The notes under the pieces are model-generated. The model ran no database searches and was not told the DNA's origin. It saw only the letters and a list, made by a program, of their open reading frames with translations. Shown here piece by piece: positions 17,153 through 32,791 of a DNA stretch of 64,000 nucleotides. The stretch lies in assembly GCF_001020565.1 (NCBI RefSeq), contig NZ_LDAS01000001.1:1459985-1523984 (forward strand), read 5' to 3'. The position numbers and the translations under genes are program-made. This stretch comes from Maribacter thermophilus. Lineage in GTDB: Bacteria > Bacteroidota > Bacteroidia > Flavobacteriales > Flavobacteriaceae. Each line of letters begins with the position of its first letter. Position 1 is the first letter of the stretch.

Positions 17153-18220
17153 ATGCAAGAACGCATAGTAACGGCCTATACCGAAACCAGCAAAGTGTTG
17201 GATACGCTTTATAAAAAAAAGAAGCGCACCCTTTTTTTGCAAAGAGTCATGTGGGGCATTACCGGTGTGTACCTCATATTTATGCTTGCATTGTTGGGCA
17301 TACAATACATACCAATGCTCCAAAATACTTCTTTGGCTTTTTTGAATGTTTTCAAGAACAGTCACACCGATCCCTACGCATCGCTCTATCCAATAATGGG
17401 GCTGATGGTCCTTTTGTATCCGACCACCATCTTTTTTACCAGGACATTTCAAAAATTCAAAACCATTGAACAGAAAACCATTGCTAAAATGGTCATAATG
17501 CTGTTTCCACAGGTTGAGTTTACCCAAGGTGCAATGGCCCCATCCAATGAAGTGGTAAAAAGCAAATTATTCCCTTGGATAAAGGAAGAAGCACCAGTTT
17601 ATAGTTACGGACAGATTAGAAGAAAAACCAATAATACAGAAATAAACATAACGGATTTGGGCATTGTGGAAAACAATGTAGCCAACAAGTTTTTGGGTAT
17701 ATTAATGCGTATTCCCGTTCTAAATATGATAGGCGTTATGTACCAGACCGTATTCAAGAATATGGTAACCAAAAAATTAGCTGACAACACCAACTATTCT
17801 TTCCGAGGTATGTTCTGTTGGTTGCGGTTTAAAAAGAAATTGAACGGCCATACGGTGGTATTGTCCAAAAACCAAATGACAAAATTGGACCGCTTGGCCA
17901 GTTTTAATTTTAAGGAAGAGCAGAAAATACATTTGGAAGACCCAAGGTTTACCAGCAAGTTTATGGTGTACGGTACCGACCAAGTGGAGGCCCGTTATGT
18001 TCTATCCGCTTCAATCATGGAAAAAATTGTTGCTTTAAAAGAAGAATTTGACCGACCCATATCGATGTCTTTTCAAAATAGACAAATGTATGTGGCCGTA
18101 AAAAATGAGAATGGGCTGTTTTCATTTCCATCAGGAAAGCTGGACAGTATGAAGCTAGTGGAAGAATTGGCCAATGACATTGAAACTGCCTTGGAGATTT
18201 CCGAAGAATTAAAATTGTAG
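17153..18220 (+). CDS. DUF3137 domain-containing membrane protein
   Basis: A 355-residue protein with two membrane segments (about 30-52 and 80-100) and a C-terminal cytoplasmic domain. It has the order expected of DUF3137: helical N-terminus, two transmembrane helices, then a beta-rich part with FRGMFCWLRFKKK, EDPRFTSKFMVYGTDQVEAR and a late MYVAVKNENGLFSF strand. DUF3137 proteins typically neighbour LemA, as here. It is the last gene of the run that starts at 7085. No obvious terminator follows, only AT-rich sequence up to the recombinase remnant. Confidence 0.8.
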   Translation: MQERIVTAYTETSKVLDTLYKKKKRTLFLQRVMWGITGVYLIFMLALLGIQYIPMLQNTSLAFLNVFKNSHTDPYASLYPIMGLMVLLYPTTIFFTRTFQKFKTIEQKTIAKMVIMLFPQVEFTQGAMAPSNEVVKSKLFPWIKEEAPVYSYGQIRRKTNNTEINITDLGIVENNVANKFLGILMRIPVLNMIGVMYQTVFKNMVTKKLADNTNYSFRGMFCWLRFKKKLNGHTVVLSKNQMTKLDRLASFNFKEEQKIHLEDPRFTSKFMVYGTDQVEARYVLSASIMEKIVALKEEFDRPISMSFQNRQMYVAVKNENGLFSFPSGKLDSMKLVEELANDIETALEISEELKL

Positions 18221-18445
18221 ATTGTGTATTCACCTGATAATATGGGAATTTCTTGGTAAAACCGACGCTTTAAGAACTAGCTCCAATAAGCTAATTATTA
18301 TTAATTCTACTTTTCAAAACACCCAAAAGTTTTGCCACTGAATGTACTGTTTTGAATACAGTTTAAAGTTCGGTTAATCCGTTTTTTTAGATTAGTGTAA
18401 AATTTGGACTGTAAAGACATTGTGGTTTTCTATTTGCACCGTTGA

Positions 18446-18721
18446 AAAAAAGGAACACCGAAGGTAATCCGTACCAAAAAGATAGCACCACATACATTAC
18501 GGCACTCTTTTGCCACCCACTCGATAGAAAACGGTGTTGGTTTAAGGTACATACAAGAACTATTGGGCCACACAAAGCCAGAAACAACCATAATCTATAC
18601 ACATGTTGCACAAAAAGATCTATTACAGGTACGAAGTACGCTGAACATTGTCGTAAAAAAAATAACGACACCCGCTAAGCGAGAACAAAATGTCTCGATA
18701 GCCCGGCACAAAAAAGGATAA
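18446..18721 (+). pseudogene. Tyrosine recombinase (integrase) C-terminal remnant
   Basis: The frame is open from 18446 (after a TGA at 18443-18445) to TAA 18719-18721. It encodes the C-terminal half of a tyrosine recombinase: [17 protein letters not shown] (HxxR box), RYIQELLGH (third catalytic His) and TIIYTHV (nucleophilic Tyr), then LLQVRSTLN and a basic tail. The first catalytic Arg and the whole N-terminal arm-binding region are missing and no start codon is present, so the fragment is inactive. XerC-like, phage-type and IntI-type recombinases all carry these boxes, and the segment that distinguishes IntI lies in the lost part. It sits directly upstream of the cassette array. The rest of 18221-18445 holds no gene that I can see. 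Confidence 0.8.
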
Positions 18722-18748
18722 AAGTGTAAATTAGGGGTGATATAACAA

Positions 18749-18757
18749 GTTGTACGC
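18749..18757 (+). repeat. Lone core-like site (GTTGTACGC) at the array entrance
   Basis: GTTGTACGC lies 27 bp after the recombinase remnant's stop and is the exact reverse complement of GCGTACAAC at 22844-22852, the end of the restriction-modification cassette. No large palindrome precedes it, unlike the other four core sites. This is what an attI-type site or a decayed attC right half would look like. The preceding GATATAACAA weakly resembles the TATACGAGACC that precedes the core of the first complete site. Confidence 0.5.
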
Positions 18758-18879
18758 AAGCTGAAAAAAGCCACCCCACGTTCAAGCACATTTGGTTTTT
18801 GCCAAAGCTCAATAGCCAACGCTGAAAAACCAAAAGAGCTTTCACTTCCCCACCACCACCCGAAAATATTTTGACCAAC

Positions 18880-18913
18880 TTGATATATAAACTGCAAATT
18901 ATTTTTACATTTG
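18880..18913 (+). promoter_or_regulatory. Bacteroidota-type promoter of the restriction-modification unit
   Basis: A -7 box TACATTTG (18906-18913) matches TAnnTTTG exactly, with a TTG (18880-18882) 23 bp upstream as the -33 element. It is 40 bp before the XRE gene start. ACTTGA (18879-18884) and TCAAGT (18925-18930) form an inverted pair around the -7 box and may be the regulator's operator. Confidence 0.5.
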
Positions 18914-18953
18914 CTAAAAATAGGTCAAGTCATAATTTGATTAAATTATAAAA

Positions 18954-19286
18954 ATGGCAAGTTTCGGACATTACATAAAAACGGAAAGAGAAAGGCGAGA
19001 ATGGACACAAACTGAATTCGGTGCGAAAATCGGAATTAATACAAGTGCCATTAGTCGAATTGAAAACGGAAGTCAAAAATTCAGTAAATCAAAGCTGAAA
19101 AAATTGGCTGAACTATTTAAAACCGACTTGCAGACCGTTACGGATTTATTCTTTGCTGACAAATTTGCAAGAGAAGCCTTTAAATATAAATGTTCAGAAT
19201 CCATTTTTACAGTAGCAGAAGATACAGCCAATTATTTAAGAAATACGAATTCCAAACAAGGAACATTCAACTTTGAAAATGAGTAA
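18954..19286 (+). CDS. XRE-family helix-turn-helix regulator (controller-like)
   Basis: A 110-residue protein with a Cro/C1-type HTH at about residues 7-62 (RERREWTQTEFGAKIGIN, then TSAISRIENGSQKFSKSKL) and a short C-terminal extension. It is placed first in a restriction-modification operon and its end overlaps the first methyltransferase start by 8 bp, a position typical of controller (C) proteins that delay nuclease expression until methylation is complete. C proteins are usually about 80 residues and this one is longer, so a different regulatory mode is possible. Autoregulation through the inverted ACTTGA/TCAAGT pair is plausible. Confidence 0.85.
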   Translation: MASFGHYIKTERERREWTQTEFGAKIGINTSAISRIENGSQKFSKSKLKKLAELFKTDLQTVTDLFFADKFAREAFKYKCSESIFTVAEDTANYLRNTNSKQGTFNFENE

Positions 19287-20319
19287 AAAATATAACGTAA
19301 TAGACCTATTCTGTGGTTGTGGAGGTCTTTCTCAAGGATTTATTGAAGCGAACTACAACGTAATTCTAGGAATAGACCATTGGAAAGATGCAATTGAAAC
19401 TTTTAACTATAACCATAAAAATTCAAAAGGAATTGTTGCTGACTTGCTAAACCTAGACCCTCAAGAAATAAAGACAAAATATGATATTGAAAGTGTCGAT
19501 TTAATTATAGGCGGTCCACCCTGTCAAGGTTTTTCTATTGCTGGCAAAAGAATCATTGATGATGAGCGAAACCAACTTTACAAATCCTTTCTTCGATTTG
19601 TAAATTATTTCAAACCCAAAGCATTTGTTATGGAAAATGTTCCTAACATACTTTCAATGGGCAATGGTGCTATCAAAAATCAAATTTTAAAGGACTTTGA
19701 AGATATCGGATATAAAATAACTTATAATAAACTATTAGCATCTGATTTTGCCGTACCTCAGAATAGAAGGAGAGCTTTTTTTGTTGGCTTAAAAGATAGC
19801 TTGGAGTTTGAATTTCCGAAACCAACAACAACTGATAATAAAATCACGTCTGAAGAAGCCATTTCCGACCTGCCAAAAAATAGTTTAGAAGATGGATGTC
19901 AATATCCCATTAATCCAAAAAGTGTTTTTCAAAGAGAAATGAGAAATGGGAATAAGGTAGTTTTCAATCATCAAATCACAAACCATAGTGAAAAAACGGT
20001 TGAAATTATTGCTATGGTTCCAGATGGAGGTAATTACAAAGACTTACCAAAAGAACTTCACGAAACGAGAAAAGTAAATATCGCTTGGACTAGACTTAAT
20101 AGCAAAAAGCCGAGTTTTACCATAGATACTGGTCACAGACATCATTTTCATTATGAATTTAATCGTGTTCCTACAGTTAGGGAAAGTGCTAGAATTCAAT
20201 CATTCCGAGACGAATTTATTTTTTGTGGTAGTAAAACAAGTCAATATAAGCAAGTAGGTAATGCAGTACCGCCATTATTAGCTAAAGAAATAGCTTTAGA
20301 AATCAAAAAATATTTATGA
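19279..20319 (+). CDS. DNA (cytosine-5)-methyltransferase 1 of the R-M unit
   Basis: A 346-residue m5C methyltransferase with its motifs in order: I DLFCGCGGLSQGF (residues 10-21), IV GGPPCQGFS with catalytic Cys82, VI ENV, VIII QNRRR, and X QVGNAVPP near the C-terminus. The target recognition region lies at about 190-275. I chose ATG 19279; an in-frame TTG six bases upstream is less likely. It overlaps the HTH gene by 8 bp and the nuclease gene by 4 bp. It should methylate one strand or one half of the recognition site; specificity cannot be read from the sequence. Confidence 0.93.
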   Translation: MSKKYNVIDLFCGCGGLSQGFIEANYNVILGIDHWKDAIETFNYNHKNSKGIVADLLNLDPQEIKTKYDIESVDLIIGGPPCQGFSIAGKRIIDDERNQLYKSFLRFVNYFKPKAFVMENVPNILSMGNGAIKNQILKDFEDIGYKITYNKLLASDFAVPQNRRRAFFVGLKDSLEFEFPKPTTTDNKITSEEAISDLPKNSLEDGCQYPINPKSVFQREMRNGNKVVFNHQITNHSEKTVEIIAMVPDGGNYKDLPKELHETRKVNIAWTRLNSKKPSFTIDTGHRHHFHYEFNRVPTVRESARIQSFRDEFIFCGSKTSQYKQVGNAVPPLLAKEIALEIKKYL

Positions 20320-21755
20320 GTAAGCCTTTAAAATATAAAATCCCTGACGAATACTTCTTTAGGCTTCATCACGTTAGACCTCGCTTCAAAAATGATGTTG
20401 AAGAGGTTTTACTTTATGTTGCAACTTCTATTTCGGAAATGCCAATATTGGACAAAGAAGTATTTAGAGATGAATTAAATAAAGTTCTTTTTGGCTTCAA
20501 GAAAAATTCCACATCTACTCAAAAAACAATTGACAATTGGAGAACTGAAATATCAGCATTATTTGGTTTTATTCAAGAATCTAACGGAAAACAATATCCT
20601 GGATTAACTGCAAAGAGATTAGCCAATAATCAATATTTGGATGAATTTTTTAATTACTTCTTGTTCAGTTTTCAATATCCAGGAGGACATATAAAACCTC
20701 AAAATGTAATTAAACAAATTGAAGCTGGTGTACGATTCAAACCGTGCCAATTCATCTTACAACTTCTTATTGAAGGAGAAAAAATATTAGGCAAACCTTT
20801 TAGTTTCACCGCAGAAGAATTAACTCAATGTGCATATTTTGATTTAAGAGTTACCCGGGATGGCAGACACCCAAAAGAAGTTGCTGAACTAATATTGTCC
20901 AACAGAAATCAAAAGATTGAATATGAACACAAGTATGAGCAACTAAAAAACTCTAGAACTGGAACTTATCCATCCAGAGGTGATGTATATCGCTATGCAG
21001 GAGATATTTTAGATTATATGGTGTTGGCAAATTTGTTACAGCATAAAGGTACAGGTTATTATTATTACCTAAATGATGAAAATAAAGAAGCTATCAATTT
21101 TCATTTGAAAAACTCGGTTTGGTTTAATGAGTATGACCAATTCTATGATAAAGAATCAATTACAAATCCTGAGGTTAGTTCTCTCGAAGAATTATGGTTT
21201 GATTTTGTTAATAGCTTTGATGAAATAGAAGAATTTAAACCTCAATTAGATTCTAATGAAGTTGAAAGCATTTCCGCTTTGATTCAAGAGTATTATTCAA
21301 GAATGACTGGAGATGCTAAAGTTCCAACCAAAATTTTTGGAGACTACGGAGAAACTTTAGTATTAGCTCACGAATATCTACGAACCAAAGAAGGTTCAAA
21401 CAGACAACATTTGATAAATAAAATTCCAACACCTTTAGGAGTTGGATATGATTTACAAAGTATTGAGATTGAGAAAAAGAAAAGATATATAGAGGTTAAA
21501 ACCACAAAATCGAGAAAAGCCATCAATAGCAATCGATTTAAGTTGACCCCCAACGAATGGGATACAGCTGAAACACTAGGTGACAATTACTATGTTTATT
21601 ATTTGGTCATTAATGACTCTGGAAAAAACATATTTATCATTAATAATCCTGTAAAGGAATATGAAAAAGGCAACTTAAAAGTTGATAAAAATTTAGTAGT
21701 AGAATTTTCAAAAGAATCTGGACAATGGCAAGAGTTAATGGAAATAAGAAATTAA
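20316..21755 (+). CDS. Restriction endonuclease-like protein with C-terminal NO VEIN/DUF3883 domain
   Basis: A 479-residue protein between two cytosine methyltransferases. The C-terminal about 130 residues fit the DUF3883/NO VEIN domain, a PD-(D/E)xK-like nuclease fold: GDYGETLVLAHEYL, GVGYDLQS with the Asp, RYIEVKTTKS giving the ExK pair, then the NEWDTAETLGDNYYVYYLV strand. The N-terminal part is helical and may hold the target recognition function. It overlaps the preceding methyltransferase by 4 bp and the following one by 31 bp. The context makes it the nuclease of the unit; cutting mode and specificity are unknown. Confidence 0.8.
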   Translation: MSKPLKYKIPDEYFFRLHHVRPRFKNDVEEVLLYVATSISEMPILDKEVFRDELNKVLFGFKKNSTSTQKTIDNWRTEISALFGFIQESNGKQYPGLTAKRLANNQYLDEFFNYFLFSFQYPGGHIKPQNVIKQIEAGVRFKPCQFILQLLIEGEKILGKPFSFTAEELTQCAYFDLRVTRDGRHPKEVAELILSNRNQKIEYEHKYEQLKNSRTGTYPSRGDVYRYAGDILDYMVLANLLQHKGTGYYYYLNDENKEAINFHLKNSVWFNEYDQFYDKESITNPEVSSLEELWFDFVNSFDEIEEFKPQLDSNEVESISALIQEYYSRMTGDAKVPTKIFGDYGETLVLAHEYLRTKEGSNRQHLINKIPTPLGVGYDLQSIEIEKKKRYIEVKTTKSRKAINSNRFKLTPNEWDTAETLGDNYYVYYLVINDSGKNIFIINNPVKEYEKGNLKVDKNLVVEFSKESGQWQELMEIRN

Positions 21756-22861
21756 GGGCTGCATCATTTTTTTGTGGTTGTGGCGGTATGGATTTAGGTC
21801 TAACTGGTAATTTCAGTTATCTGAATAAAAACTACCCTTCCCTGCCATTCGAGGTAGTATATGCTAACGACTTTGATAAATATGCTACAGAAATTTACAA
21901 TGATAATTTTGAACATAAATGTATCACTAAAGACATCAAGGATGTTACAATGGCTGAAATTCCCGAACACGATATTCTTTTGGGTGGTTTTCCGTGTCAG
22001 TCCTTTTCGATTAGTGCACAAAATCCGCCAAGATTAGGTTATAAAGACGAAAGAGGTATGCTATTCTTTGAAATGGTCAAAATTCTTAAAAAGAAACAGC
22101 CTAGATTCTTTATCGCGGAAAATGTAAAAGGAATTTTGTCTGCCAATAAAAAGAAAGCGTTTCCAATGATAATCAAAGAGTTTGAAAAAGCTGGTTATCA
22201 CGTAAAATATCAGCTTTTTAATGCGTCAGAATATGGTGTTCCACAAAAGCGAGAACGAGTTTTTATAATTGGGTTCAAGAATTATGAGGACTTCGTTTAT
22301 TTTAATTTTCCCAAACCAACCACTTTGAACGGCTCAAAAGTTAAATTGAAAGAGGTAGTTGACAAAAAAGCTAATAAGGATGAAAAATGGTTCTTTAGCC
22401 AACGTGCGGTTGATGGAATGATGAGAGTACAAAAGAAAATGAATAAGGGAAGAGACCAAAACTTGGAAGAACCTTGCAATACAATTAGTTCGCATCTTGC
22501 AAAGGTCAGCCTGAACAGTACTGACCCTGTTTTAAAAATTGACGGTAAATACAGGAGATTCACACCACGGGAAGCAGCAAACATTCAATCTTTTCCTGAC
22601 AATTTTAAATTGGATTCTGTTTCTGATGCTAGACAATATCGAGCAATTGGAAATGCTGTTCCACCAGTATTAATGTGGCACATAGCAAATTCATTAGGAC
22701 AACTTATTGAAAAAGGTATAAAACAAGCCAACCCTGAAAGCCATACACATTTGCAGTTCGCACAAGCCAACGCTTCACCAAAAACTGCAAAAGAGTATGT
22801 CTTTTCCAACGCTGATAAAAACGAACTGAATGAAAAAAAGCCAGCGTACAACATTGTATAA
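21725..22861 (+). CDS. DNA (cytosine-5)-methyltransferase 2 of the R-M unit
   Basis: A 378-residue m5C methyltransferase: motif I FFCGCGGMDLGL, IV GGFPCQSFS with catalytic Cys91, VI ENVKG, VIII QKRER, X AIGNAVPP. It is only distantly similar to the first enzyme, and a pair like this usually means an asymmetric target with one enzyme per strand. The core ends near residue 330. The last 45 residues are a low-complexity tail translated from repeat-like DNA, and the gene takes its stop from the GTATAA of the first palindrome, so the tail probably reflects cassette junction sequence. The start overlaps the nuclease gene by 31 bp. Confidence 0.93.
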   Translation: MARVNGNKKLRAASFFCGCGGMDLGLTGNFSYLNKNYPSLPFEVVYANDFDKYATEIYNDNFEHKCITKDIKDVTMAEIPEHDILLGGFPCQSFSISAQNPPRLGYKDERGMLFFEMVKILKKKQPRFFIAENVKGILSANKKKAFPMIIKEFEKAGYHVKYQLFNASEYGVPQKRERVFIIGFKNYEDFVYFNFPKPTTLNGSKVKLKEVVDKKANKDEKWFFSQRAVDGMMRVQKKMNKGRDQNLEEPCNTISSHLAKVSLNSTDPVLKIDGKYRRFTPREAANIQSFPDNFKLDSVSDARQYRAIGNAVPPVLMWHIANSLGQLIEKGIKQANPESHTHLQFAQANASPKTAKEYVFSNADKNELNEKKPAYNIV

Positions 22862-22979
22862 AAATAATAGCGGTTTAATCGTTAAAATGAAAGTGAGTAA
22901 ATAAAAAAAGGTCTGTATTTATCTGAAAAATAAGTGCTTCAAAATCCGCTACTATTCTTATACGAGACCGTTGGCATTA
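22844..22979 (+). repeat. Cassette-junction palindrome, site 1 (attC-like)
   Basis: Left core GCGTACAAC (22844-22852), spacer ATT, left arm GTATAAAAATAATAGCGG (22856-22873), a 72-base loop, right arm CCGCTACTATTCTTATAC (22946-22963), spacer GAGACC, right core GTTGGCATTA (22970-22979). The arms pair at 16 of 18 positions; both mismatches become T-G pairs on the bottom strand. There is no T-run, so it is not a typical terminator. The left core belongs to the restriction-modification cassette, the right core to the serine hydrolase cassette. Confidence 0.75.
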
Positions 22980-22989
22980 ATTAGACAAA

Positions 22990-24108
22990 ATGATTAACAA
23001 ATCAAGTTTCACATTAATACTTCTACTACTACTTTCGTTTACTACGAGAGCCCAACTATTAGTAGATGATGAAGAATTTATAGCGGAATACATAATTGAA
23101 AATAATATCCCGGGACTAAGTATTGCAATAGTCGAAAATTCTGAACTAGTTTATTCGAAAGGATTTGGGGTAAAAAATAGCTCAACCCAAGAAAAAGTTA
23201 CCAATGAAACTTTATTTCAAGCAGCCTCACTAAGCAAAAGTCTAACAGGGGCCTTAATTTTAAAAAATGTTGAAAAGCAAAAAATCAACTTAGATACCCC
23301 TGTCAACAGATATTTAACCAATTGGAAACTTGAATCCAAAAGTAAGGGAAACAAGTTCGAACCAACCGTTTTTCAATTGTTAACGCATACTGGAGGAACT
23401 AACATTCACGGATTTCGGGGATATAAAAGCACAAAAACACCACCAGATTTGTTATCGATTCTAAACGGTGAGGTATTTCTTGAACCTAAAATTGTTGTCA
23501 AGAAAAAACCTAATACCGAATTCGACTACTCTGGTGGAGGATATGTCGTATTACAAAAAGCTCTGATTGACATCAACAATAAAGGTTTTAACGAACAAAT
23601 GAATGAAGAGATATTGCAACCTTGCGGAATGGTTTCAAGTTTTTATTCGGTCAATCTAAATGAATCACAGCTGAGTCAGATTGCAATTGGTCATAAGAAA
23701 AATGCTACTCCCTTAGAATCGGATTATTTTCTATATCCTCAATATGCAGCTGGAGGATTATGGTCTACACCATCTGAAATAGCAAAATTCTTAATAGCAA
23801 TCCAAAACTCAATTAACTCGGATAATACAGAGAACTTATTATCAAAGCAAAGTATAAAGAGGTTGCTCGAACGACCTACTTTAGAAACCGGAAAAAGACC
23901 AACTTATGGATTGGGGTTTGGTTTTAAGATAGACTCAACAACGAATGAAATTATTTCGTTGCGTCATAGCGGAGCAAATGTTGGATATAGTTGTTTTATG
24001 GAAGCTAGTAGAGATGGAAAATATGCATATATAATTATGAGCAATCGGGACTTTGCCAAGTTATCGGGCATAAGACAAAGAATATTGGACCATTTAAAAA
24101 ATAACTAA
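22990..24108 (+). CDS. Secreted serine hydrolase, beta-lactamase/DD-peptidase fold
   Basis: A 372-residue protein with a signal peptide (about 1-22, ending TTRAQ). The class C/DD-peptidase fold is shown by the nucleophile motif SLSK (Ser80, Lys83), a YSGGGY motif at the YxN position and HSGANVGYSC at the KTG-equivalent position. The substrate is unknown; this family includes esterases, D-aminopeptidases and peptidoglycan-acting enzymes, and true beta-lactamase activity should not be assumed. It forms a one-gene cassette: GTTGGCATTA 11 bp upstream and TAATGCCAAC beginning at its own stop codon. Confidence 0.88.
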   Translation: MINKSSFTLILLLLLSFTTRAQLLVDDEEFIAEYIIENNIPGLSIAIVENSELVYSKGFGVKNSSTQEKVTNETLFQAASLSKSLTGALILKNVEKQKINLDTPVNRYLTNWKLESKSKGNKFEPTVFQLLTHTGGTNIHGFRGYKSTKTPPDLLSILNGEVFLEPKIVVKKKPNTEFDYSGGGYVVLQKALIDINNKGFNEQMNEEILQPCGMVSSFYSVNLNESQLSQIAIGHKKNATPLESDYFLYPQYAAGGLWSTPSEIAKFLIAIQNSINSDNTENLLSKQSIKRLLERPTLETGKRPTYGLGFGFKIDSTTNEIISLRHSGANVGYSCFMEASRDGKYAYIIMSNRDFAKLSGIRQRILDHLKNN

Positions 24109-24306
24109 TGCCAACACAACCTATAAACAATACGGGACTTTGGGCTGGAACGAAAGGTTTGCGTATTATTATGAAGTCCGCAAAATCTTTTGGATTTTGC
24201 TCTGGACAGGAAAAAATAAATCAAAACAAAAAGATTTCGCTATGTGCGTGGTGGAAAGCAAACGCCAGTTTGCTCCCGTACTGTTCATAGCTAAACCGTT
24301 ACCTGC
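24106..24306 (+). repeat. Cassette-junction palindrome, site 2 (attC-like, long loop)
   Basis: Left core TAATGCCAAC (24106-24115), spacer ACAAC, left arm CTATAAACAATACGGGA (24121-24137), a 136-base loop, right arm TCCCGTACTGTTCATAG (24274-24290), spacer CTAAACC, right core GTTACCTGC (24298-24306). The arms match at 15 of 17 positions and both mismatches are T-G on the bottom strand. The loop contains a second hairpin, GCAAAATC/GATTTTGC (24180-24200). The left core contains the stop codon of the upstream gene. Confidence 0.75.
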
Positions 24307-24318
24307 AAGCCAAACCGA

Positions 24319-25461
24319 ATGAAAAAAACAATGATTTATGCAATAATTACTTTAATTCTGATTTTCGCTGTTTGGATTATTCTAAAATCTTTAACTAATA
24401 AATTTGGCAAAGATATTAATGAATTTTACGAACCCTTCCGAAAACAGAATAGTGATTCATTTTTGGGTGATGTTGATTTTTCTGATGGCAATTATGTTCT
24501 GTATATTAAACACAAAGAATTAGGAGAATTTGCTGTAGTTAACAAAGAAAGCCTAAAAGCAAATAGAGATTCTTTGAAAGTTAAGGTTAGTTGGGCTAAC
24601 TATCTTCCTGGAGAAGGAAACAGAAGTTTTGGGGTAATGCTTTTTAAGGATAATAAGCTAATCAAAAGAAGAAATGGAGGAGTATTCAAAATTTTTGAGA
24701 TAGGAAATTTAAAACAAGGTTCTGTTTCCGTAAAGGAACATAGATTAAATGCTGTTAAAAGAGATATTCAAAACAGAATCGATTCACTTAATGCAAGTAA
24801 AAATATCTTTATAATATCCCAATCCGATTTACCAAAAGAAGACAAAGAATTTCATTTTCGTATTTATTTTCCAAGTATTGCTGTTCCAGTCACACGAGGA
24901 AAAGATGACAATGGTTATCAAAGAATATTAACCATAAACGGGATTGATTATTCCGAATGGCAGAATGGAAAAGACAATGGTTTTGATGAAAAGTGGACAA
25001 CCCAAATTGATAAGTGTATCAAAATGAAGGCTGGAGGAATAACTGACTTTGATGTATCCATATTAAACGGAACATTGTCAGACGCCTACTTATTTGATGT
25101 GAGCCAAGACTGGGGAGAATTACATAGCACTGACCATCAAATTTTATACTTGAAAGATTTTATGTATTATCACTACCAAGCATATATTGGTGCAAATAAA
25201 GAAGATGCTGAAAAATTGCTAACAATAGATTATAGCGATTGTATCAGCGAAACCGACCGAAACCGACCAAAGCTCATAGCCAAAATGAAAGACTTGGTAA
25301 AACAAAGCACCAAGCCAAGTTTATCTGTAGAAAAAGGAGAAGTTGGATTATCTGATTATAAAGATTCTGTTACCAAAAGTAAAACACTTTATGAGCAAAA
25401 ATATCAGCTTAATTGGTTAGAAATTGAGAATGAGCCAGCAGGTAACACGGTGTATAAGTAA
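24319..25461 (+). CDS. Membrane-anchored orphan protein (single-gene cassette)
   Basis: A 380-residue protein with one N-terminal transmembrane helix (about 4-24) and a large extracytoplasmic part. I do not recognise a family. The first half is strand-rich (NYVLYIKHKELGEFAVVNK), followed by a Lys/Asp-rich alternation and a C-terminal helical region with few hydrophobic clusters. Codon use and AT content resemble the other cassette genes. The final residues GNTVYK are read from inside the next palindrome, whose GTAATA supplies the stop. Its start lies 12 bp after the core GTTACCTGC. Confidence 0.65.
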   Translation: MKKTMIYAIITLILIFAVWIILKSLTNKFGKDINEFYEPFRKQNSDSFLGDVDFSDGNYVLYIKHKELGEFAVVNKESLKANRDSLKVKVSWANYLPGEGNRSFGVMLFKDNKLIKRRNGGVFKIFEIGNLKQGSVSVKEHRLNAVKRDIQNRIDSLNASKNIFIISQSDLPKEDKEFHFRIYFPSIAVPVTRGKDDNGYQRILTINGIDYSEWQNGKDNGFDEKWTTQIDKCIKMKAGGITDFDVSILNGTLSDAYLFDVSQDWGELHSTDHQILYLKDFMYYHYQAYIGANKEDAEKLLTIDYSDCISETDRNRPKLIAKMKDLVKQSTKPSLSVEKGEVGLSDYKDSVTKSKTLYEQKYQLNWLEIENEPAGNTVYK

Positions 25462-25575
25462 TAGCGGTTTAAGTTATAAGAACGAAACTGTAAATATAAA
25501 ATAAAGGTCAGTATAAAACTGAAAGGTTTGTGAGTAGAAAACTGCTACTACTTATACACTTGACCGTTGGCGGTA
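25438..25575 (+). repeat. Cassette-junction palindrome, site 3 (attC-like)
   Basis: Left core GCAGGTAAC (25438-25446), spacer ACG, left arm GTGTATAAGTAATAGCGGT (25450-25468), a 72-base loop, right arm ACTGCTACTACTTATACAC (25541-25559), spacer TTGACC, right core GTTGGCGGTA (25566-25575). The arms match at 17 of 19; one mismatch is T-G on the bottom strand and one is G-T on the top. Arms and loop are clearly related to site 1, including an AAAGGTCnGTAT segment and an equal loop length. Confidence 0.75.
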
Positions 25576-25608
25576 ATAAGAAAAAACCATAGAACAAATT
25601 AATAACAT

Positions 25609-26718
25609 ATGAAAATATTAAAGAAAATAGGAAAGTGGTTTTTGATTTTACTGGGAGCAATTGTTGCGTTTATTTTAGTTGTATTACTAATAATTCGAAT
25701 CAATAGTTCTGGAAACGAAGAACCTTTTTTAGACGAAAACGGTAATGTTCTTCCGAATAGTATCGCTATGCACGAGGATATGACAATCAATGGAGTACCT
25801 CAAAGGATTACCATAAGAGGAAAAGACAAGAATAATCCCGTACTACTAATAGTTCACGGAGGACCAGGCGCACCAATTTTACCTGTAATTTACAAATTGA
25901 CAAGAACTGATTTGGAAGATATTTTTACGGTTTGTTACTGGGAGCAAAGAGGCTCTGGGCTAGCTTTTAATGATAGCATACCTGATTCATCCATTACCTT
26001 ATCACATATAGTTGATGATGGTTTGGAACTATCCAATCATTTAAAAAAGACGTTCAAAAAAGACAAAATTTACATTGAAGGTTTATCGTGGGGAACAGCG
26101 GTAGCAGCTTATATGGTTCAAAAACAGCCTGAATTATATCACACCTATATTGGTAGTGGTCTTATGGCGAATCTATCACTTTCAGAAGAATTATCTTATG
26201 AATTTGCAATGTCAGAATCCCAAAAACACAATGATACCATTTCAATCAATCAATTAAAACAAATTGGAAGACCACCTTATGTTAAAAACTCAAAAAATTC
26301 AGTAACTGAAGCCTTTGAAATAGAACGAAAGATTGTAATGAAGTATGCACCGATAAAATTAGAAACCGATTTTAATTTTATTAAAAGTATGTTTTTAGAT
26401 AATGGATTAACGTTTAGCGAAAAATTTACTGATATGATAAATAGTCCTGAATCCTACTATCCTGCAGCTAAAATTTTACAACCTACTGCAATCAATATGA
26501 ATTTAATGCGTGATATTCCTGAATTGAAAGTGCCAGTTTATATATTACAAGGAGACAATGACCATTTTACCGAAACGTCAGTAGCAAAAGCGTATTTTGA
26601 TTCACTTATTGCGCCATCTAAAAAATGGTTTTTATTTGAAAACGGAACACACGGAGTACAAGTTGAATATCCTGAAAAATATCGTTCAATTTATATCAAT
26701 GAAATACTTGGAAAATAA
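25609..26718 (+). CDS. Alpha/beta hydrolase, proline iminopeptidase-like
   Basis: A 369-residue protein with an N-terminal membrane helix (about 9-31), then an alpha/beta hydrolase: oxyanion motif HGGPG, nucleophile elbow GLSWG with the catalytic Ser, the acid in QGDNDHF, and a C-terminal His in NGTHGVQ. The HGGPG box and the short cap are typical of the proline iminopeptidase group (peptidase S33), so it may act on small peptides or esters at the envelope. It is a single-gene cassette, bounded by GTTGGCGGTA upstream and TACCGCCAAC just past its stop. Confidence 0.88.
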   Translation: MKILKKIGKWFLILLGAIVAFILVVLLIIRINSSGNEEPFLDENGNVLPNSIAMHEDMTINGVPQRITIRGKDKNNPVLLIVHGGPGAPILPVIYKLTRTDLEDIFTVCYWEQRGSGLAFNDSIPDSSITLSHIVDDGLELSNHLKKTFKKDKIYIEGLSWGTAVAAYMVQKQPELYHTYIGSGLMANLSLSEELSYEFAMSESQKHNDTISINQLKQIGRPPYVKNSKNSVTEAFEIERKIVMKYAPIKLETDFNFIKSMFLDNGLTFSEKFTDMINSPESYYPAAKILQPTAINMNLMRDIPELKVPVYILQGDNDHFTETSVAKAYFDSLIAPSKKWFLFENGTHGVQVEYPEKYRSIYINEILGK

Positions 26719-26722
26719 TTAC

Positions 26723-26858
26723 TACCGCCAACACCGTATATAATTTATTGCTACTTCTAGCCTACTTACGAAAATCCTTGCGGATTTTCTATTCGGTTTT
26801 TATTTACTAAATTATGTGCTTAAACACGCAACAAACCATATACAAACACGTTAGCAAC
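26723..26858 (+). repeat. Cassette-junction palindrome, site 4 (attC-like)
   Basis: Left core TACCGCCAAC (26723-26732), spacer ACC, left arm GTATATAATTTATTGC (26736-26751), a 76-base loop, right arm GCAACAAACCATATAC (26828-26843), spacer AAACAC, right core GTTAGCAAC (26850-26858). The arms pair at 13 of 16; all three mismatches are T-G on the bottom strand. The loop holds a separate hairpin GAAAATCC/GGATTTTC (26770-26789). The right core is followed by GCTAAC, which makes a small extra palindrome with it. Confidence 0.7.
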
Positions 26859-26882
26859 AAGCTAACAAACCCATAATGAACA

Positions 26883-27476
26883 ATGAAAAATTCTTTTTTC
26901 GAAAGCACATACAATCACCCTAATATTAAAAAAGAGGATTATAAAAACATTATGGATGCCCACACCAAAGTTGAGTTTTCAAAAAATGAAATCATACTTA
27001 ATGAAGGTAAGATTAGCAACGAATATTTCCTAATTAAAAAAGGTTTGTTTCGTTCATTTGTTATTGACTATAAAGGCAACGAAATTACGACCGGTTTTTT
27101 TGGCCCTAATGATATTCTCATTGAAGTAGCTTCTTTATTTCTTCGTATACCTTCAGAAGAAACCATTCAGGCATTAACGGACTGTGAAGTCTATAAAATT
27201 GAATTCAACGATTTCCAGAATTTATATAGAACCATTGAAGGCTTTACCGAATGGGGGCGCAGCTGGATGTCCCAACAACTTTTCATGGCAAAACACCGTG
27301 CCGTCACTATGCATACGCAAAGTGCCTCACAACGATATTTAAATCTGATTCAAGAAAAGCCCCAAATTATTAAAGAAGTACCCTTAAAATATATTGCTAC
27401 TTATTTAGGGATTACCGATACTTCTTTGAGCCGGATAAGAAAAGAAGTGTTATCTCAAACAGAGAACTTGCCATAG
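26883..27476 (+). CDS. Crp/Fnr-family transcriptional regulator
   Basis: A 197-residue regulator with a cyclic-nucleotide-binding-type beta-roll at about residues 20-120 (FSKNEIILNEGKISNEYFLI, GFFGPNDILIE) and a C-terminal HTH (VPLKYIATYLGI then TDTSLSRIRKE). The roll lacks the RxS phosphate-binding pattern of true cAMP receptors, as in many Bacteroidota members, so the ligand is unknown. It heads a four-gene cassette with VOC, SnoaL-like and DUF1569 proteins and probably regulates them or itself. The 64-bp gap to the next gene could hold a promoter. Confidence 0.88.
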   Translation: MKNSFFESTYNHPNIKKEDYKNIMDAHTKVEFSKNEIILNEGKISNEYFLIKKGLFRSFVIDYKGNEITTGFFGPNDILIEVASLFLRIPSEETIQALTDCEVYKIEFNDFQNLYRTIEGFTEWGRSWMSQQLFMAKHRAVTMHTQSASQRYLNLIQEKPQIIKEVPLKYIATYLGITDTSLSRIRKEVLSQTENLP

Positions 27477-27540
27477 GACAAGTTTTTATTGACTTGCTTT
27501 TTTCACTTTTGTAATCATAACAATTTAAAAGATTTAAAAG

Positions 27541-27924
27541 ATGAAAAAATTTAATCCCGTGGTGTGGTTCGAGATTTATGTAAACGATATGGATAGGGCC
27601 GCAACGTTTTACGAAAAAGTACTTCAAGTTGCGTTAGAAGATATGAGCGATCCAACAGATTCATCTGTACAGATGAAATGCTTCCCAAGTGATATGGAAA
27701 ATTACGGTGCAGCTGGTGCTTTGGTAAAAATGGAAGCCGTAAAACCCTCAGCCAATGGAAGTCTCGTTTATTTTGGTTGTGAAGATTGTAAGGTCTTAGA
27801 AAATAGAGCATCGGAAAACGGGGCCGAAGTTATTCAACCCAAAATGGCTATTGGGGAACACGGATTTGTTTCCATTATTAAAGATACAGAAGGGAACTCC
27901 ATTGGATTTCATTCGATGAACTAG
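27541..27924 (+). CDS. VOC-family (glyoxalase/bleomycin-resistance fold) protein
   Basis: A 127-residue single-domain protein with a VOC fold: VWFEIYVNDMDRAATFYEKV at the N-terminus, LVYFGCEDC in the middle, GEHGFVSIIKDTEGNSIGFH at the end. Many relatives bind metals, antibiotics or reactive aldehydes, but no metal triad is complete enough to predict a reaction. It lies 64 bp after the Crp/Fnr gene and is followed after 20 bp by the SnoaL-like gene. Confidence 0.85.
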   Translation: MKKFNPVVWFEIYVNDMDRAATFYEKVLQVALEDMSDPTDSSVQMKCFPSDMENYGAAGALVKMEAVKPSANGSLVYFGCEDCKVLENRASENGAEVIQPKMAIGEHGFVSIIKDTEGNSIGFHSMN

Positions 27925-27944
27925 AGAATATTAAATGACTCTAA

Positions 27945-28322
27945 ATGACCAAAATAATATCCAGTCCCAATTGTGGCAATTCGCCCAAAATGGAATTTTT
28001 AAAACAGTTTAATATTGCCTTTGCCAAAGGCGATATAGCCTTTTTAATTGAAAATGTTACGGATGATATAGTTTGGAACATTATTGGCGACAAAAAATTA
28101 GAAGGAATAAAAGCGTTTACGGAAGAATTAGCAAAAATGCAATCTGTAAAAGCATCTAATTTGATATTAAATCAAATCTTATCCCACGGTAAAGAAGGTG
28201 CAGCAAATGGGGTAATGACAATGGAAAGTGGAAAACAGTATGCATTTTCTGATTTTTATCTGTTTCAGAGTGCTAAAGGAGAGAAATTAAAAGAAATAAC
28301 ATCATACTGCATAAAATTATAA
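27945..28322 (+). CDS. SnoaL-like / NTF2-fold protein
   Basis: A 125-residue protein with a cone-shaped NTF2-like fold: an N-terminal helix (MEFLKQFNIAFAKGD), a VTDDIVWNIIG strand, an LEGIKAFTEEL helix and a long beta-sheet to the end. These proteins bind small hydrophobic ligands or catalyse isomerisation; the active residues are not clear here. An internal ATG at 27990 would give the classical start and is an alternative. Only 2 bp separate it from the DUF1569 gene. Confidence 0.75.
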   Translation: MTKIISSPNCGNSPKMEFLKQFNIAFAKGDIAFLIENVTDDIVWNIIGDKKLEGIKAFTEELAKMQSVKASNLILNQILSHGKEGAANGVMTMESGKQYAFSDFYLFQSAKGEKLKEITSYCIKL

Positions 28323-28324
28323 AG

Positions 28325-28780
28325 ATGAAAACCATTTTTGACCCAAACATCAGACTACAGCTAACCAAACGAATTGAACAAATCAATGCAGACAGTAAAG
28401 CGCAATGGGGCAAAATGAATGTTTACCAAATGATAAAACATTTGAATATTTGGAATCAATGGGTGTTAGGTATTGATAACAATATACCTTATAAACAAGA
28501 CTTTCTTGGTAAACTTATTGGAAAAATGGTCTTAAAGGCCAACACCAAAAACGACAAACCAATGGGTAAAGGTGCACCAGCAGGTTCTAACTTTACCATC
28601 AAAGAGAAAAATGGAGATTTTGAGAAGCAAAAACAAAAATTGTTTGATTTAACTGAACATTACGGGCGCTATAACAACCCAGATTTTATTCACGGTTTTT
28701 TCGGTAAAATGACCAAAGAACAAATTGGAATTTTCGCTTATAAACATTATGATCATCATTTAAGGCAGTTTGGAGTTTAA
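28325..28780 (+). CDS. DUF1569 (DinB-like) protein
   Basis: A 151-residue protein with the DUF1569 pattern of the DinB superfamily: an N-terminal helix with KAQWGKMNVYQMIKHLNIW, a central loop region and a C-terminal helix with a His pair (KHYDHHLRQFG). In DinB-like proteins His residues bind a metal, and some members are thiol or epoxide transferases. It is the last gene of the Crp cassette, 36 bp before the core-like GTTGCCAAC at 28817. Confidence 0.82.
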   Translation: MKTIFDPNIRLQLTKRIEQINADSKAQWGKMNVYQMIKHLNIWNQWVLGIDNNIPYKQDFLGKLIGKMVLKANTKNDKPMGKGAPAGSNFTIKEKNGDFEKQKQKLFDLTEHYGRYNNPDFIHGFFGKMTKEQIGIFAYKHYDHHLRQFGV

Positions 28781-28816
28781 TAATAAAAAATGAATGAAAC
28801 ATAACGAAGAAAGCCA

Positions 28817-28992
28817 GTTGCCAACAAATAACTGAGGTAAAGAACAAGTAAATCCTTCCTTAATCTGAGACAATACTATTCTAGGCCCTTAGATTCTAAA
28901 ATCAGGTTCTTCGGGCTTTTTTATTCGATTCATCTTCTATTTATCTAGGCAATACCAAAAACATACGATTCATCGTACCGCCTACCGGATTG
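28817..28992 (-). mobile_element. IS110-family remnant, copy 2
   Basis: About 170 bp match copy 1 (491 to about 665) with scattered substitutions and single-base indels. It contains the last codons of the transposase on the minus strand (RYDESYV) with the stop near 28941, plus the IS end. The match begins at GTTGCCAAC, as in copy 1, right after the DUF1569 gene. The rest of the element is gone, and 28993-29340 holds no gene that I can identify. Confidence 0.7.
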
Positions 28993-29347
28993 TGTATCAG
29001 TTCACCAATTCCAATTATTAACAATAAAGGCCTCTATTGCATCTAAAAAGAAAAGCAGGGTCAGCCCTGGAAAATGAAATAAAATGAATTACAAGGTGTC
29101 TTTTTGCGCGAAAACGTAATTTTCATTGCGCATTGGAAATTCAATAAAACAATGACGCACTTGACCTTCATGAGCATCCTCAGAACTTGGAAAACATGAT
29201 ATAATCAAAGTCAAACATTGATGTGTACCTCATTTGCACCTCTAACTCCCCTACCCCTAATATTTATTAATGTTGATACTTTCTGCATCGGGGGAAAATA
29301 AAGACATAAAAAGAATCTATTTTTAAACCACGTCGCAAAGCCTTATG

Positions 29348-29376
29348 TTGAATCCCAGACACAAGTGGTATCTTTG
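29348..29376 (+). promoter_or_regulatory. Bacteroidota-type promoter
   Basis: TTG (29348-29350) and TATCTTTG (29369-29376) are spaced by 18 bp, matching the -33/-7 promoter of this phylum. Transcription would start about 55 bp before the M20 amidohydrolase gene. Confidence 0.65.
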
Positions 29377-29432
29377 TACAAGCAAATTCGACGTCACCAT
29401 TTTTAAATACAACCTTTAAAAAAGGGAATAAA

Positions 29433-30572: not shown

Positions 30573-31018
30573 CCCGGTTACCTCATATTATTCGCACCTT
30601 GTAAAAATTGTTTGCTCGAAAAATATTGTCGATTTTTAGTTTGGTATGCCCGCGCCGATCCATTGACAAACGACGCAATTGCCCATAAACCAAACCTTTC
30701 TAGATAAGGTAGGAATCGTTCTGAAATGAATCGGGGCATGAAATTTTATAATCGATATCTAATGGTTACTAACAGGCCATTGATGATGACCGATATAAAA
30801 AAACAAAAAACCATGCTCTGTTACGGCTGTATTTTAACAGGGTTTTGGCGCATAACCCAAAGTTTAACGTATTTTTATAACATCTGCCATTTTTTTTGAC
30901 TTGGCTTTATATAAAGAAAATTTAACTAACATATGTAACACGTGCAAATGATGGTAACGAAACACCAAAATTTGTATAAGAGAATCCTTGGTTCTTATAA
31001 ATTTCATTTTTTTAGTAG
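30573..31018 (+). other. Intergenic region, no gene seen
   Basis: 446 bp separate the amidohydrolase from the AraC/TPR regulator. No open frame has protein-like composition and no hairpin with a T-run is obvious. Presumably it carries the regulator's promoter and leader. Confidence 0.5.
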
Positions 31019-32791
31019 ATGGGCAACACACAATCCATAGCAGTTTTACCCTTTGTTAATATGAGTAATGATGTTGAAAATGAATATTTCTGCGATGGAA
31101 TCACTGAAGAAATTATAAATGCCCTAACAAAAGTAAATCAACTAAAAGTAATTGCAAGAACCTCTTCATTCGTCTTTAAGGGAAAAAATATAGACATTAG
31201 AAATATAGGCCAGCAATTGGGCGTAAATACGATTCTTGAAGGAAGTATCAAAAAATCTCAAGATCGGGTTAGAATAACCGCTCAGTTAATAGACATTGAA
31301 GATGGATCGCACTATTGGTCCAAAAGGTTTGATAGGGAATTGACCGACATTTTTGAATTGGAAGATGAGATCAGTCTTGCCATAGCGGACGAGGTGCGAA
31401 ACAATTTTGGCCATTTCGAAATTCAAGATCATTTAATAGACCAGCCTACAAACAACGTTGATGCCTATCAATTGTACTTAAAAGGACGGTCATTTCAATT
31501 AAAATGGACCCCTGAAAGTCTAGAGCAGGCCATATCCTATTACAATCAGGCCATTGCCCTCGACAAAAATTACGCCAGGGCCTACTATGCCAATTTACAA
31601 TGCTATGGGTTATCGGCAATGTGGGGGTATATGCCTTATGAAGAGGCTATGGAATCAGCTATAGGCAATTTACTCATAGCCAAGGAACTGGATACCTCGT
31701 TGCCAGAATACCCTCTCTCTTATGTAGGCCGATTTTTTTGGCAAGAATGGGACTTTAAAAATGCCTATATTCATATAAACAAGGTATTGGCCATAAACCC
31801 AGACCATATTGACGGTCTGGAAGCTATGGCAGAACTGTTCATTGCGCTCGGTTTTTTTGATAAAGCCTTAATATATGCCAACAAGCTCATAGAAGTAGAT
31901 CCACTTTCTTCCAATAACCATTATACGTTGGCACATATTTACTATTACCAACGTAAATTTGACAAAGCCCTTGAAACCGTAGAGTATGCCCTGACCCTTA
32001 ATCCTGAACTGGAGTTGGCACACCATTTAAAGTGCTTTTGTTTAATATGGCTGAACAAAAAGCAACAGTTTAAAAAATTTATACACAACACCCCGCTGAT
32101 AGCGGAGAAACACCTATTGTTTGACCTCATCAACGATAAGCATATTGAAGTTCAGGACCCCATTATAAAAAACTGGTCGGAACAAGGTTACAACGAAACC
32201 ACACTGGTGCCTTATGACCTGTTTATCTTAAGTAATTCAGGTCACATAGAATCGGGATTTTCCCGCCTAAAAGAGATGATCGACCAAAGACGAGGTCAGA
32301 TCATAAACTACAGGCAAGAACCCTTTTTACAACCTTTGCACAAAGTAAAGGGCTTTACAGACCTACACGGTTCCAATTTGTCCCTTTCCGATATTACAAG
32401 CCCTCGGGCGGATGATGGGAAACCGATCGCGAACATCTTGGATGATGGCCAAATTGAAACCTTAAAAAAAGAATTGCTTAGTTATTTCAACGAGGAAGAA
32501 CCTTTTTTAAATCCTCAATTAAGTTTAAAAATTGTTGCGGACGTTTTAGGGTTAAACACCAATAAAATGTCATTTCTGATCAATCAGGCGTTTAATGCGA
32601 ATTTTAACGACTTTGTCAATTCATACCGTTTAAAGCATTTTAAAACCATAGCCCTAGACCCCAAAAATTCGCATTTGACCATTCTCGGGTTGGCCTATGA
32701 CAGTGGTTTTAACTCCAAAAGTGTATTTAATACCTATTTTAAAAAAATAGAAGGTGTAACCCCTAGGGCCTGGATGAAGGCCAACCCTTAG
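31019..32791 (+). CDS. AraC-type regulator with FlgO-like and TPR domains
   Basis: A 590-residue cytoplasmic protein with three parts. The N-terminus (about 1-125: SIAVLPFVNMSNDVENEYFC, ILEGSIKKSQDRVRITAQLI) is the FlgO/TolB-N-like domain seen in many TPR-containing regulators. TPRs cover about 145-400. The C-terminal AraC HTH (about 485-588: LSLKIVADVLGLNTNKMSFL, GLAYDSGFNSKSVFNTYFKK) binds DNA. No kinase or signal peptide is present, so it is a one-component regulator with an unknown input. The serine hydrolase at 32892 is the nearest candidate target. Confidence 0.88.
   Translation: MGNTQSIAVLPFVNMSNDVENEYFCDGITEEIINALTKVNQLKVIARTSSFVFKGKNIDIRNIGQQLGVNTILEGSIKKSQDRVRITAQLIDIEDGSHYWSKRFDRELTDIFELEDEISLAIADEVRNNFGHFEIQDHLIDQPTNNVDAYQLYLKGRSFQLKWTPESLEQAISYYNQAIALDKNYARAYYANLQCYGLSAMWGYMPYEEAMESAIGNLLIAKELDTSLPEYPLSYVGRFFWQEWDFKNAYIHINKVLAINPDHIDGLEAMAELFIALGFFDKALIYANKLIEVDPLSSNNHYTLAHIYYYQRKFDKALETVEYALTLNPELELAHHLKCFCLIWLNKKQQFKKFIHNTPLIAEKHLLFDLINDKHIEVQDPIIKNWSEQGYNETTLVPYDLFILSNSGHIESGFSRLKEMIDQRRGQIINYRQEPFLQPLHKVKGFTDLHGSNLSLSDITSPRADDGKPIANILDDGQIETLKKELLSYFNEEEPFLNPQLSLKIVADVLGLNTNKMSFLINQAFNANFNDFVNSYRLKHFKTIALDPKNSHLTILGLAYDSGFNSKSVFNTYFKKIEGVTPRAWMKANP

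Follow-up and report, generated by a model that had tools for sequence, protein, structure and literature searches.

Introduction

Among the described systems closest to the one analysed here are the integrons. A 2008 survey that reports intI from the Bacteroidetes/Chlorobi group selected its proteins by an additional domain (PMC2426708), and IntI of archaeal integrons is likewise defined by an additional domain (PMC9668308). The IntI patch is described as essential to integron function by Smyshlyaev et al. (2021; PMC8138268), whose integron-like subgroup of tyrosine recombinases (YRs) is one in which, by their account, the IntI insertion is not fully conserved. For Bacteroidetes proper, the IntegronFinder 2.0 paper (PMC9024848) gives only In0 elements from earlier work and then one complete integron, in Salinibacter. 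IntegronFinder detected no integron in a Chryseobacterium genome (PMC13063519), and a study of a Polaribacter phage predicted attC sites with methylase genes by HattCI plus Infernal, one of which was recombined by IntI1 (PMC9892861). Two further papers were also consulted (PMC8618304, PMC8876359). Here we analyse a cassette array at positions 18749–28825 of a 64,000-nucleotide stretch of Maribacter thermophilus DNA (the window; RefSeq assembly GCF_001020565.1, contig NZ_LDAS01000001.1, 1,459,985–1,523,984, forward strand). The array in all likelihood belongs to an integron-like gene-capture system with a non-IntI recombinase, which is widespread in Flavobacteriaceae and occurs elsewhere in Bacteroidota as well.

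Results

attC-like sites and complementary cassette ends

The array comprises four complete attC-like sites and a fifth half-site, all on the plus strand. These are site 1 (22844–22978; left core R'' GCGTACAAC, arms 22856–22876 and 22943–22963, right core R' GTTGGCATT), site 2, which has a long loop (24106–24306; arms 24121–24137 and 24274–24290), site 3 (25438–25575; arms 25450–25470 and 25539–25559) and site 4 (26723–26858; arms 26736–26751 and 26828–26843). Each complete site consists of a left core ending in AAC, a spacer of 3–5 nt, an arm, a loop, a second arm, a spacer of 6–7 nt and a GTT core, which is the order of elements in an integron attC site. The arms measure 21, 17, 21 and 16 nt in sites 1–4 and are 81–90% complementary. 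All ten core coordinates given by the original prediction, which was made from the sequence alone, are correct. Its sites stand except at the last, 28814–28825, where only the left half (R'') is present and a right half was looked for and not found; the array ends in this truncated site, which has no right arm, just before 28826–29400. Loose arm-pattern searches of the window gave counts near chance (18 matches against 13.6 expected, and 8 against 3.0).

Four of the five window cassettes have ends that are exact reverse complements, and the fifth matches at 8 of 9 positions. A covariance model, R1, built from window sites 1, 3 and 4 carried the comparison to other genomes. As predicted, the complementarity lies within the cassette rather than within the site: the two ends of one cassette match on average at 5.1 of 6 variable positions (104 intervals), and the two cores of one site at only 2.1 of 6 (143 sites). 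In this first set all six positions match in 76 of the 104 intervals and at least five in 84, against 1.4% and 5.5% of mismatched start/end pairings. In a second set, from the named loci described below, the counts are 68 and 78 of 92, against 0.9% and 5.1%. Both sets, which may have species in common, are restricted to intervals of 150–2500 bp, and sites without AAC or GTT near the expected place were dropped. The complementarity, whose fading with further sites the original prediction had named as counter-evidence, persists. The poor fit of the cores to the integron consensus is confirmed: RYYYAAC is found in 18 and GTTRRRY in 19 of 287 sites, AAC and GTT themselves having been a requirement in placing the sites.

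The stems show a pronounced strand bias. Among 171 distinct stems (identical stems entered once, 5 sites without a stem left out), 350 mismatches are of the A:C type, which forms a T-G wobble pair in the bottom strand, and 15 are of the G:T type, which pairs in the top strand. Counted by stem, 162 lean towards the bottom strand, none towards the top and 9 tie. The first stem set alone gives 89 to 0 for the bottom strand (sign test 3e-27, with related stems non-independent). We infer that these sites fold in the bottom strand, as attC sites do.

A truncated recombinase and an attI-like motif adjoin the array

Immediately to the left of 18749, in sequence that the original prediction did not cover, are a C-terminal remnant of a tyrosine recombinase and an attI-like motif. 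The remnant (18446–18721, plus strand, 91 aa; PF00589, 55.2 bits) retains HxxR, LGH and YTHV and is without the N-terminal ~300 residues of the recombinase. Directly 3' of it is the attI-like site, GATATAACAA followed by GTT (18739–18751, plus strand). In the same genome R1 detects a second array at ~3.65 Mb of C1 and more sites at 1.33, 2.01 and 2.05 Mb, and fails to recover window site 2. The second array (L008, G000:C1:3645000–3661000, minus strand) also begins at a remnant with an attI-like motif, and this second remnant copy (G000:C1:3658430–3658609, minus strand) adjoins the start of the array. Between the two copies of remnant plus attI-like motif, 331 columns align at 93.7% identity, and the similarity stops at 18751, on the GTT that opens cassette 1. 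Different first cassettes follow, and a shared remnant and motif with differing first cassettes is what different insertions at one attI would leave. PF00589 matches at seven places in this genome, both of those belonging to the cassette system being fragments, and IntI model TIGR02249 has no match in it at E≤1e-30. Because the recombinase is truncated to a remnant, the arrays of M. thermophilus are probably inactive in cis and, barring a recombinase that acts in trans, fixed.

Relatives have an intact recombinase of about 370–410 aa, and the array usually lies 3' of its gene in the same orientation. With a 73-residue stretch of the remnant as query, 80 of the 149 genomes of the family gave a match at E≤1e-15. 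Among the matches listed, the best 41 (E≤2e-21, 40 genomes) are mostly in open frames of 389–469 aa, and XerD-like proteins of about 300 aa appear among the weaker ones. R1 sites lie on the recombinase strand in 13 of 16 downstream regions (opposite-strand matches overlap these), and two of the three regions with no R1 match extend no more than about 200 bp past the gene. The motif TATAACNAGTT follows the recombinase stop codon in 15 of the 16, and a variant with extra A's, read by eye, occurs in L072.

A search with a recombinase alignment returned at least 577 relatives, from which 80 named loci were kept, the recombinase being the only search criterion. They are mostly from Flavobacteriaceae (Polaribacter, Lutibacter, Bizionia, Algibacter, Winogradskyella, Maribacter, Gillisia, Mesonia, Christiangramia and others) and include a few metagenome-assembled genomes of Bacteroidales and Cyclobacteriaceae. 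R1 has 195 matches (E≤1e-3) in 53 of these loci, 194 of them on the recombinase strand, with the single minus match overlapping a plus match; 193 of the 194 lie downstream of the gene, the exception being L144:5270. In 65 of 76 eligible loci the attI pattern comes after the stop codon (four loci offering fewer than 60 bases 3' of that codon were excluded), and it appears in 0/76 and 0/33 control stretches; we infer that it serves as attI. A contig end lies within 5 kb downstream of the recombinase in 51 of the 80 loci and upstream in 5, an excess that we read as assembly breaks at repeats.

Screening with R1, built from three of the four sites for which the original prediction had proposed such a model, gave matches in 128 of the 149 genomes of the family (E≤1e-5), or 127 of the 148 genera sampled, and in 64 of 198 phylum genomes (E≤1e-6), with at most 21 candidates scored per family genome and at most 16 per phylum genome. 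More distant recombinases from other families of the phylum (L219, L220, L221, L224, L225 and L227) also have downstream R1 matches on the same strand. Plasmid and phage searches with one recombinase as query returned only relatives under 60% identity.

The recombinase falls outside the IntI clade

Three recombinases of the new type score 195.1, 193.6 and 194.3 bits against the NCBIfam IntI model TIGR02249, below its cut-off of 265, and each match is broken into two stretches. The same proteins reach 212–218 bits with the NCBIfam XerA model, narrowly below its cut-off of 220, and score far under the respective cut-offs of XerD and XerC. The NCBI name of the XerA model contains 'integron integrase', so public annotation under that name is no proof of IntI. 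The spacing from the catalytic Lys to HxxR is 58–63 residues in 41 of 41 new-type proteins. In 23 IntI rows its median is 100 (range −129 to 100, negative values reflecting a mis-placed motif), and 6 further IntI rows gave no motif match. The new-type recombinases therefore lack the IntI patch. The columns holding R, K, H, R, H and Y, which we take to be the catalytic residues, are invariant in 34 aligned rows.

A tree of 72 rows, with XerD as outgroup, places 20 IntI rows in a single clade (support 100/100). Outside it are 40 new-type rows that group together at 83/72, and L228 lies outside that group; a single clade of all 41 new-type rows is not rejected by an approximately unbiased test (p 0.351). 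The tree omits IntI rows L083, L088, L095 and L099, nine close copies, and two very long rows (a XerC and another integrase) that disturbed the root of the first tree, and long rows were trimmed to their last 360–420 residues. Separation of the new-type recombinases from the IntI clade is well supported, and their forming one group has modest support. Two other proteins, L230 (G382) and L232 (G315), are patch-less by eye and stand beside the IntI clade (95/89); they could bear on the origin of IntI.

The recombinase has an Xer-like core. Its AlphaFold2 model (mean predicted local distance difference test (pLDDT) score 84.7, predicted template-modelling score 0.56) resembles XerA, IntI4 (TM 0.70 by target) and others, and by sequence the solved structures closest to the recombinase are archaeal Xer 4a8e and XerA 5hxy. 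It shares core fold and catalytic residues with XerA, XerD and XerC, but differs from them in its sub-threshold model scores, its extra N-terminal domain and its cassette-array context. As a simple YR near Xer it resembles the integron-like YR subgroup (PMC8138268), for which no flavobacterial cassette system is described in the portions consulted of that paper.

In the model the first ~70 residues make up a domain of their own (pLDDT 86). Pfam HARP (PF07443) is the top match in three of five N-terminal segments (E 7e-4, 0.003 and 0.026; best 19.6 bits, below the gathering score of 25) and absent in two. A profile of this segment searched against PDB places the SMARCAL1 HARP domain 4o66 second (E 0.17), behind an unrelated-looking protein (E 0.027). 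Foldseek ranks 4o66 at positions 1–2 (probability 0.97, E 0.025) and XPB at 3–5, with no match at E≤0.001. VIA gives XPB a Z of 7.2 (1.9 Å over 61 residues), equalled by the presumably unrelated CASTOR1, and 4o66 a Z of 4.5 (1.8 Å over 49). These lines of evidence are each weak but agree, and the domain may be HARP/XPB-like. Both HARP and the XPB domain are recognition modules for forked or damaged DNA, and by analogy it is attractive to suppose that this domain helps to bind the folded site. The recombinases of L220 and L228 (open frames of 459 and 602 aa) seem, by eye, to carry two or more HARP-like copies.

Cassettes and their sharing between genomes

Cassettes of an interval of 150–5000 bp with end complementarity of at least 5/6 were taken as confirmed (n=167). 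Their median length is 806 bp, the longest open reading frame (ORF; ≥50 aa) is forward in 147 of 149 and reverse in 2, and forward ORFs begin a median of 33 bp after GTT. At least 70% of a cassette is found again elsewhere in 26 matches. Of these, 15 link different loci and 11 lie inside a single locus, and some pairs are counted twice, once from each side. All 15 between-locus matches have their left end no more than 26 nt from GTT, and 5 of the 15 have their right end no more than 14 nt from the next one. Cassette 1 of the window recurs in genome G108 (4250 columns, 76% identical), where the match begins at GTT and stops 5 nt inside the following core; there (L107, 1878–6090) it is the first cassette after a different recombinase (group C). 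Another cassette is found again in L105, L145, L062, L120 and L198. The first cassettes of L219 and L220 were considered as breakpoint evidence and set aside, as their homology extends left into the recombinase. Near-identical cassettes are repeated inside one array in L059 (about 440 bp, core GTTATGTACAA), L120 and L180 (an 800-bp cassette duplicated at 100% identity), which suggests recent duplication or re-insertion.

A fixed gene order in relatives, named by the original prediction as counter-evidence, is not what a congener, G460, displays. Its left flank is 97% identical up to 18264, including a gene for a 355-aa protein (17153–18220, plus strand; 96% identical), and then gives way to a different array with six R1 matches. 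Of the window array only four matches of 126–186 columns are left in G460, at or around sites. Sequence from the right flank of the window (30603–32754) lies on another G460 contig with five R1 matches before it. No recombinase of the new type was found in the two G460 stretches compared.

All cassettes of the window array are on the plus strand. Cassette 1 (18749–22969) carries BpuJI-like restriction-modification genes: a helix-turn-helix regulator (18954–19286), a C5-methylase (19285–20319), a BpuJI_N/NOV_C endonuclease (20316–21755) and a second C5-methylase (21731–22861). This unit moves as a single 4.2-kb cassette between genomes of different genera. Cassette 2 (22970–24297) encodes a serine hydrolase of beta-lactamase fold (gene 22990–24108), cassette 3 (24298–25565) a 380-aa protein with no Pfam match at E≤0.001 (gene 24319–25461) and cassette 4 (25566–26849) an alpha/beta hydrolase (gene 25609–26718). 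Cassette 5 (26850–28825) holds four genes, for a protein with a cyclic-nucleotide-binding domain (26883–27476), a glyoxalase-like ORF labelled by eye only (27541–27924), a SnoaL-like protein below the Pfam cut-off (27945–28322) and a DUF1569 protein (28325–28780).

Discussion

The comparative evidence is strong that this system behaves as an integron yet fails IntI membership on its recombinase. Like integrons, it combines a recombinase, an attI-like site and a co-oriented cassette array with bottom-strand-biased sites, at which a cut between the G and the TT is expected, and its cassettes, with a median of 806 bp, mostly hold a forward ORF. Unlike integrons, the flavobacterial recombinase is without the IntI patch and has an extra N-terminal domain, the array lies at the 3' end of the recombinase gene on the same strand, and the cores seldom fit the consensus. 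The integron-like nature of the array, as originally proposed, is borne out by site anatomy, strand bias, the attI-like motif, the adjoining recombinase, shared cassettes and the exchanged array of G460. The further proposal of a functional, undescribed integron type holds in part. The IntI tests agree with its being undescribed, and a search of open-access journal papers, by title and the start of the abstract, returned no description of the flavobacterial system. Function is likely in relatives with an intact recombinase and, because the recombinase is truncated, unlikely in cis in M. thermophilus itself.

The array could instead be the remnant of an ordinary IntI integron with divergent attC sites, a cluster of attC sites lacking integron integrases (CALIN), built by a classical IntI while the neighbouring recombinase is incidental. 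The attC-type architecture of the sites would fit this, as would the presence of true IntI in the phylum (84 of 296 genomes above the cut-off), the R1-type sites near one of ten true IntI genes in other families of the phylum, and the use of a Polaribacter-phage attC by IntI1 (PMC9892861). M. thermophilus arrays do resemble CALINs in having sites and no intact recombinase. But relatives keep a different intact recombinase beside such sites, so that the complete system exists elsewhere under its own recombinase, and in many genera the sites lie 3' of this patch-less enzyme and an attI-like motif. Moreover, the genome of the window has no qualifying IntI match, and among the matches listed the best TIGR02249 match in its family has E 8.6e-41 and 141 bits against the 265-bit cut-off. 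R1 also finds nothing in nine of the ten IntI neighbourhoods; since R1 is no general attC detector, these nine loci show a difference from R1 and not an absence of attC. We consider an IntI origin of the array improbable. The positive neighbourhood (L210, G153:C1:1201001–1220500) has three R1-type matches about 4–6 kb upstream of the true IntI on the same strand, possibly a mixing of both systems.

Two other explanations are less credible still. Chromosomal XerC and XerD might use the cassette-flanking sites as Xer/dif modules, given that XerC- and XerD-like proteins (labels by eye) are present and that the recombinase core is Xer-like. However, dif-like sites are short and double-stranded, whereas the sites here are ~135-nt imperfect hairpins with a strong strand bias that come after a dedicated recombinase and not after XerC/D, which makes this reading very hard to sustain. 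Equally far-fetched is the idea that the sites are structured transcription terminators or RNA elements between co-oriented genes, with recombination absent. It would account for intergenic hairpins and for the nearly uniform direction of the cassette genes, but a hairpin in RNA read in the direction of the genes would bias mismatches oppositely, so the 350 to 15 excess for the bottom strand speaks against transcript structure. An Rfam scan of 18200–29400 gave no match at E≤1, and own-cassette complementarity and cassette sharing would be left unexplained.

Several observations weigh against a cassette system run by the new-type recombinase. Support for cassette recombination is comparative, drawn from genome sequences. 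The sites may not be exclusive to this recombinase, given the IntI1 result in the Polaribacter phage. R1-type sites also occur at one of the ten true IntI loci and near recombinases of another group (L226, L235). R1 derives from three window sites, which biases the site set towards the window type. No R1 match is present in 27 of the 80 named loci (23 of the 80 have under 1 kb downstream), nor in about 18 kb at L063, which has an intact recombinase and an attI-like motif, and the attI pattern is absent in 11 of 76 loci. Complementarity fails in 20 of 104 and 14 of 92 intervals, many of them long, where a site was possibly missed. Among the between-locus cassette matches, the right end falls ~100–150 nt short of the next GTT in 8 of 15, at or ahead of the site, so that the gene is common to both and the site not alignably so, and ~540 nt short in 2 of 15. 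Separately, the recombinases of L226 (G184) and L235 (G302) are shorter (319 and 285 aa) and have their R1 matches nearby on the opposite strand, an arrangement that recalls the classical divergent integron layout.

An integron-like system with its own recombinase would work as follows. A tyrosine recombinase of ~370–410 aa, patch-less and with an Xer-like core, is encoded immediately 5' of an attI-like site, ATATAACN[AC] followed by GTT. The cassette would pass through a circular intermediate consisting of one gene or operon and one attC-like site, whose bottom strand would fold into a hairpin of a core pair, unpaired spacers of 3 and 6 nt, a ~18-bp stem and a ~75-nt loop. The recombinase would presumably cut at or beside the first base of GTT and catalyse the joining of the cassette to attI or to another site. 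Because joining splits the circular site, the linear cassette would begin and end with complementary cores. Folded-site gene capture may even have arisen twice from Xer-like recombinases, in IntI by way of the patch and in Bacteroidota by way of a fused HARP/XPB-like junction-binding domain, which would make the flavobacterial integron system an independent one across the family, a proposal that we put forward tentatively and as somewhat less than an even chance.

IntI is the defining component of integrons. A lineage that has no patch and possesses its own attI-like site, sites and arrays would demonstrate another way of doing the same and would allow the origin of integrons to be tested comparatively; the integron way of life may have had one origin or two. 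The single complete integron of Bacteroidetes proper named in the IntegronFinder 2.0 survey (PMC9024848) stands against sites in 127 of 148 genera of this one family. If active, the system would give common environmental bacteria an extensive means of exchanging genes, restriction-modification systems included, that has so far gone unrecognised.

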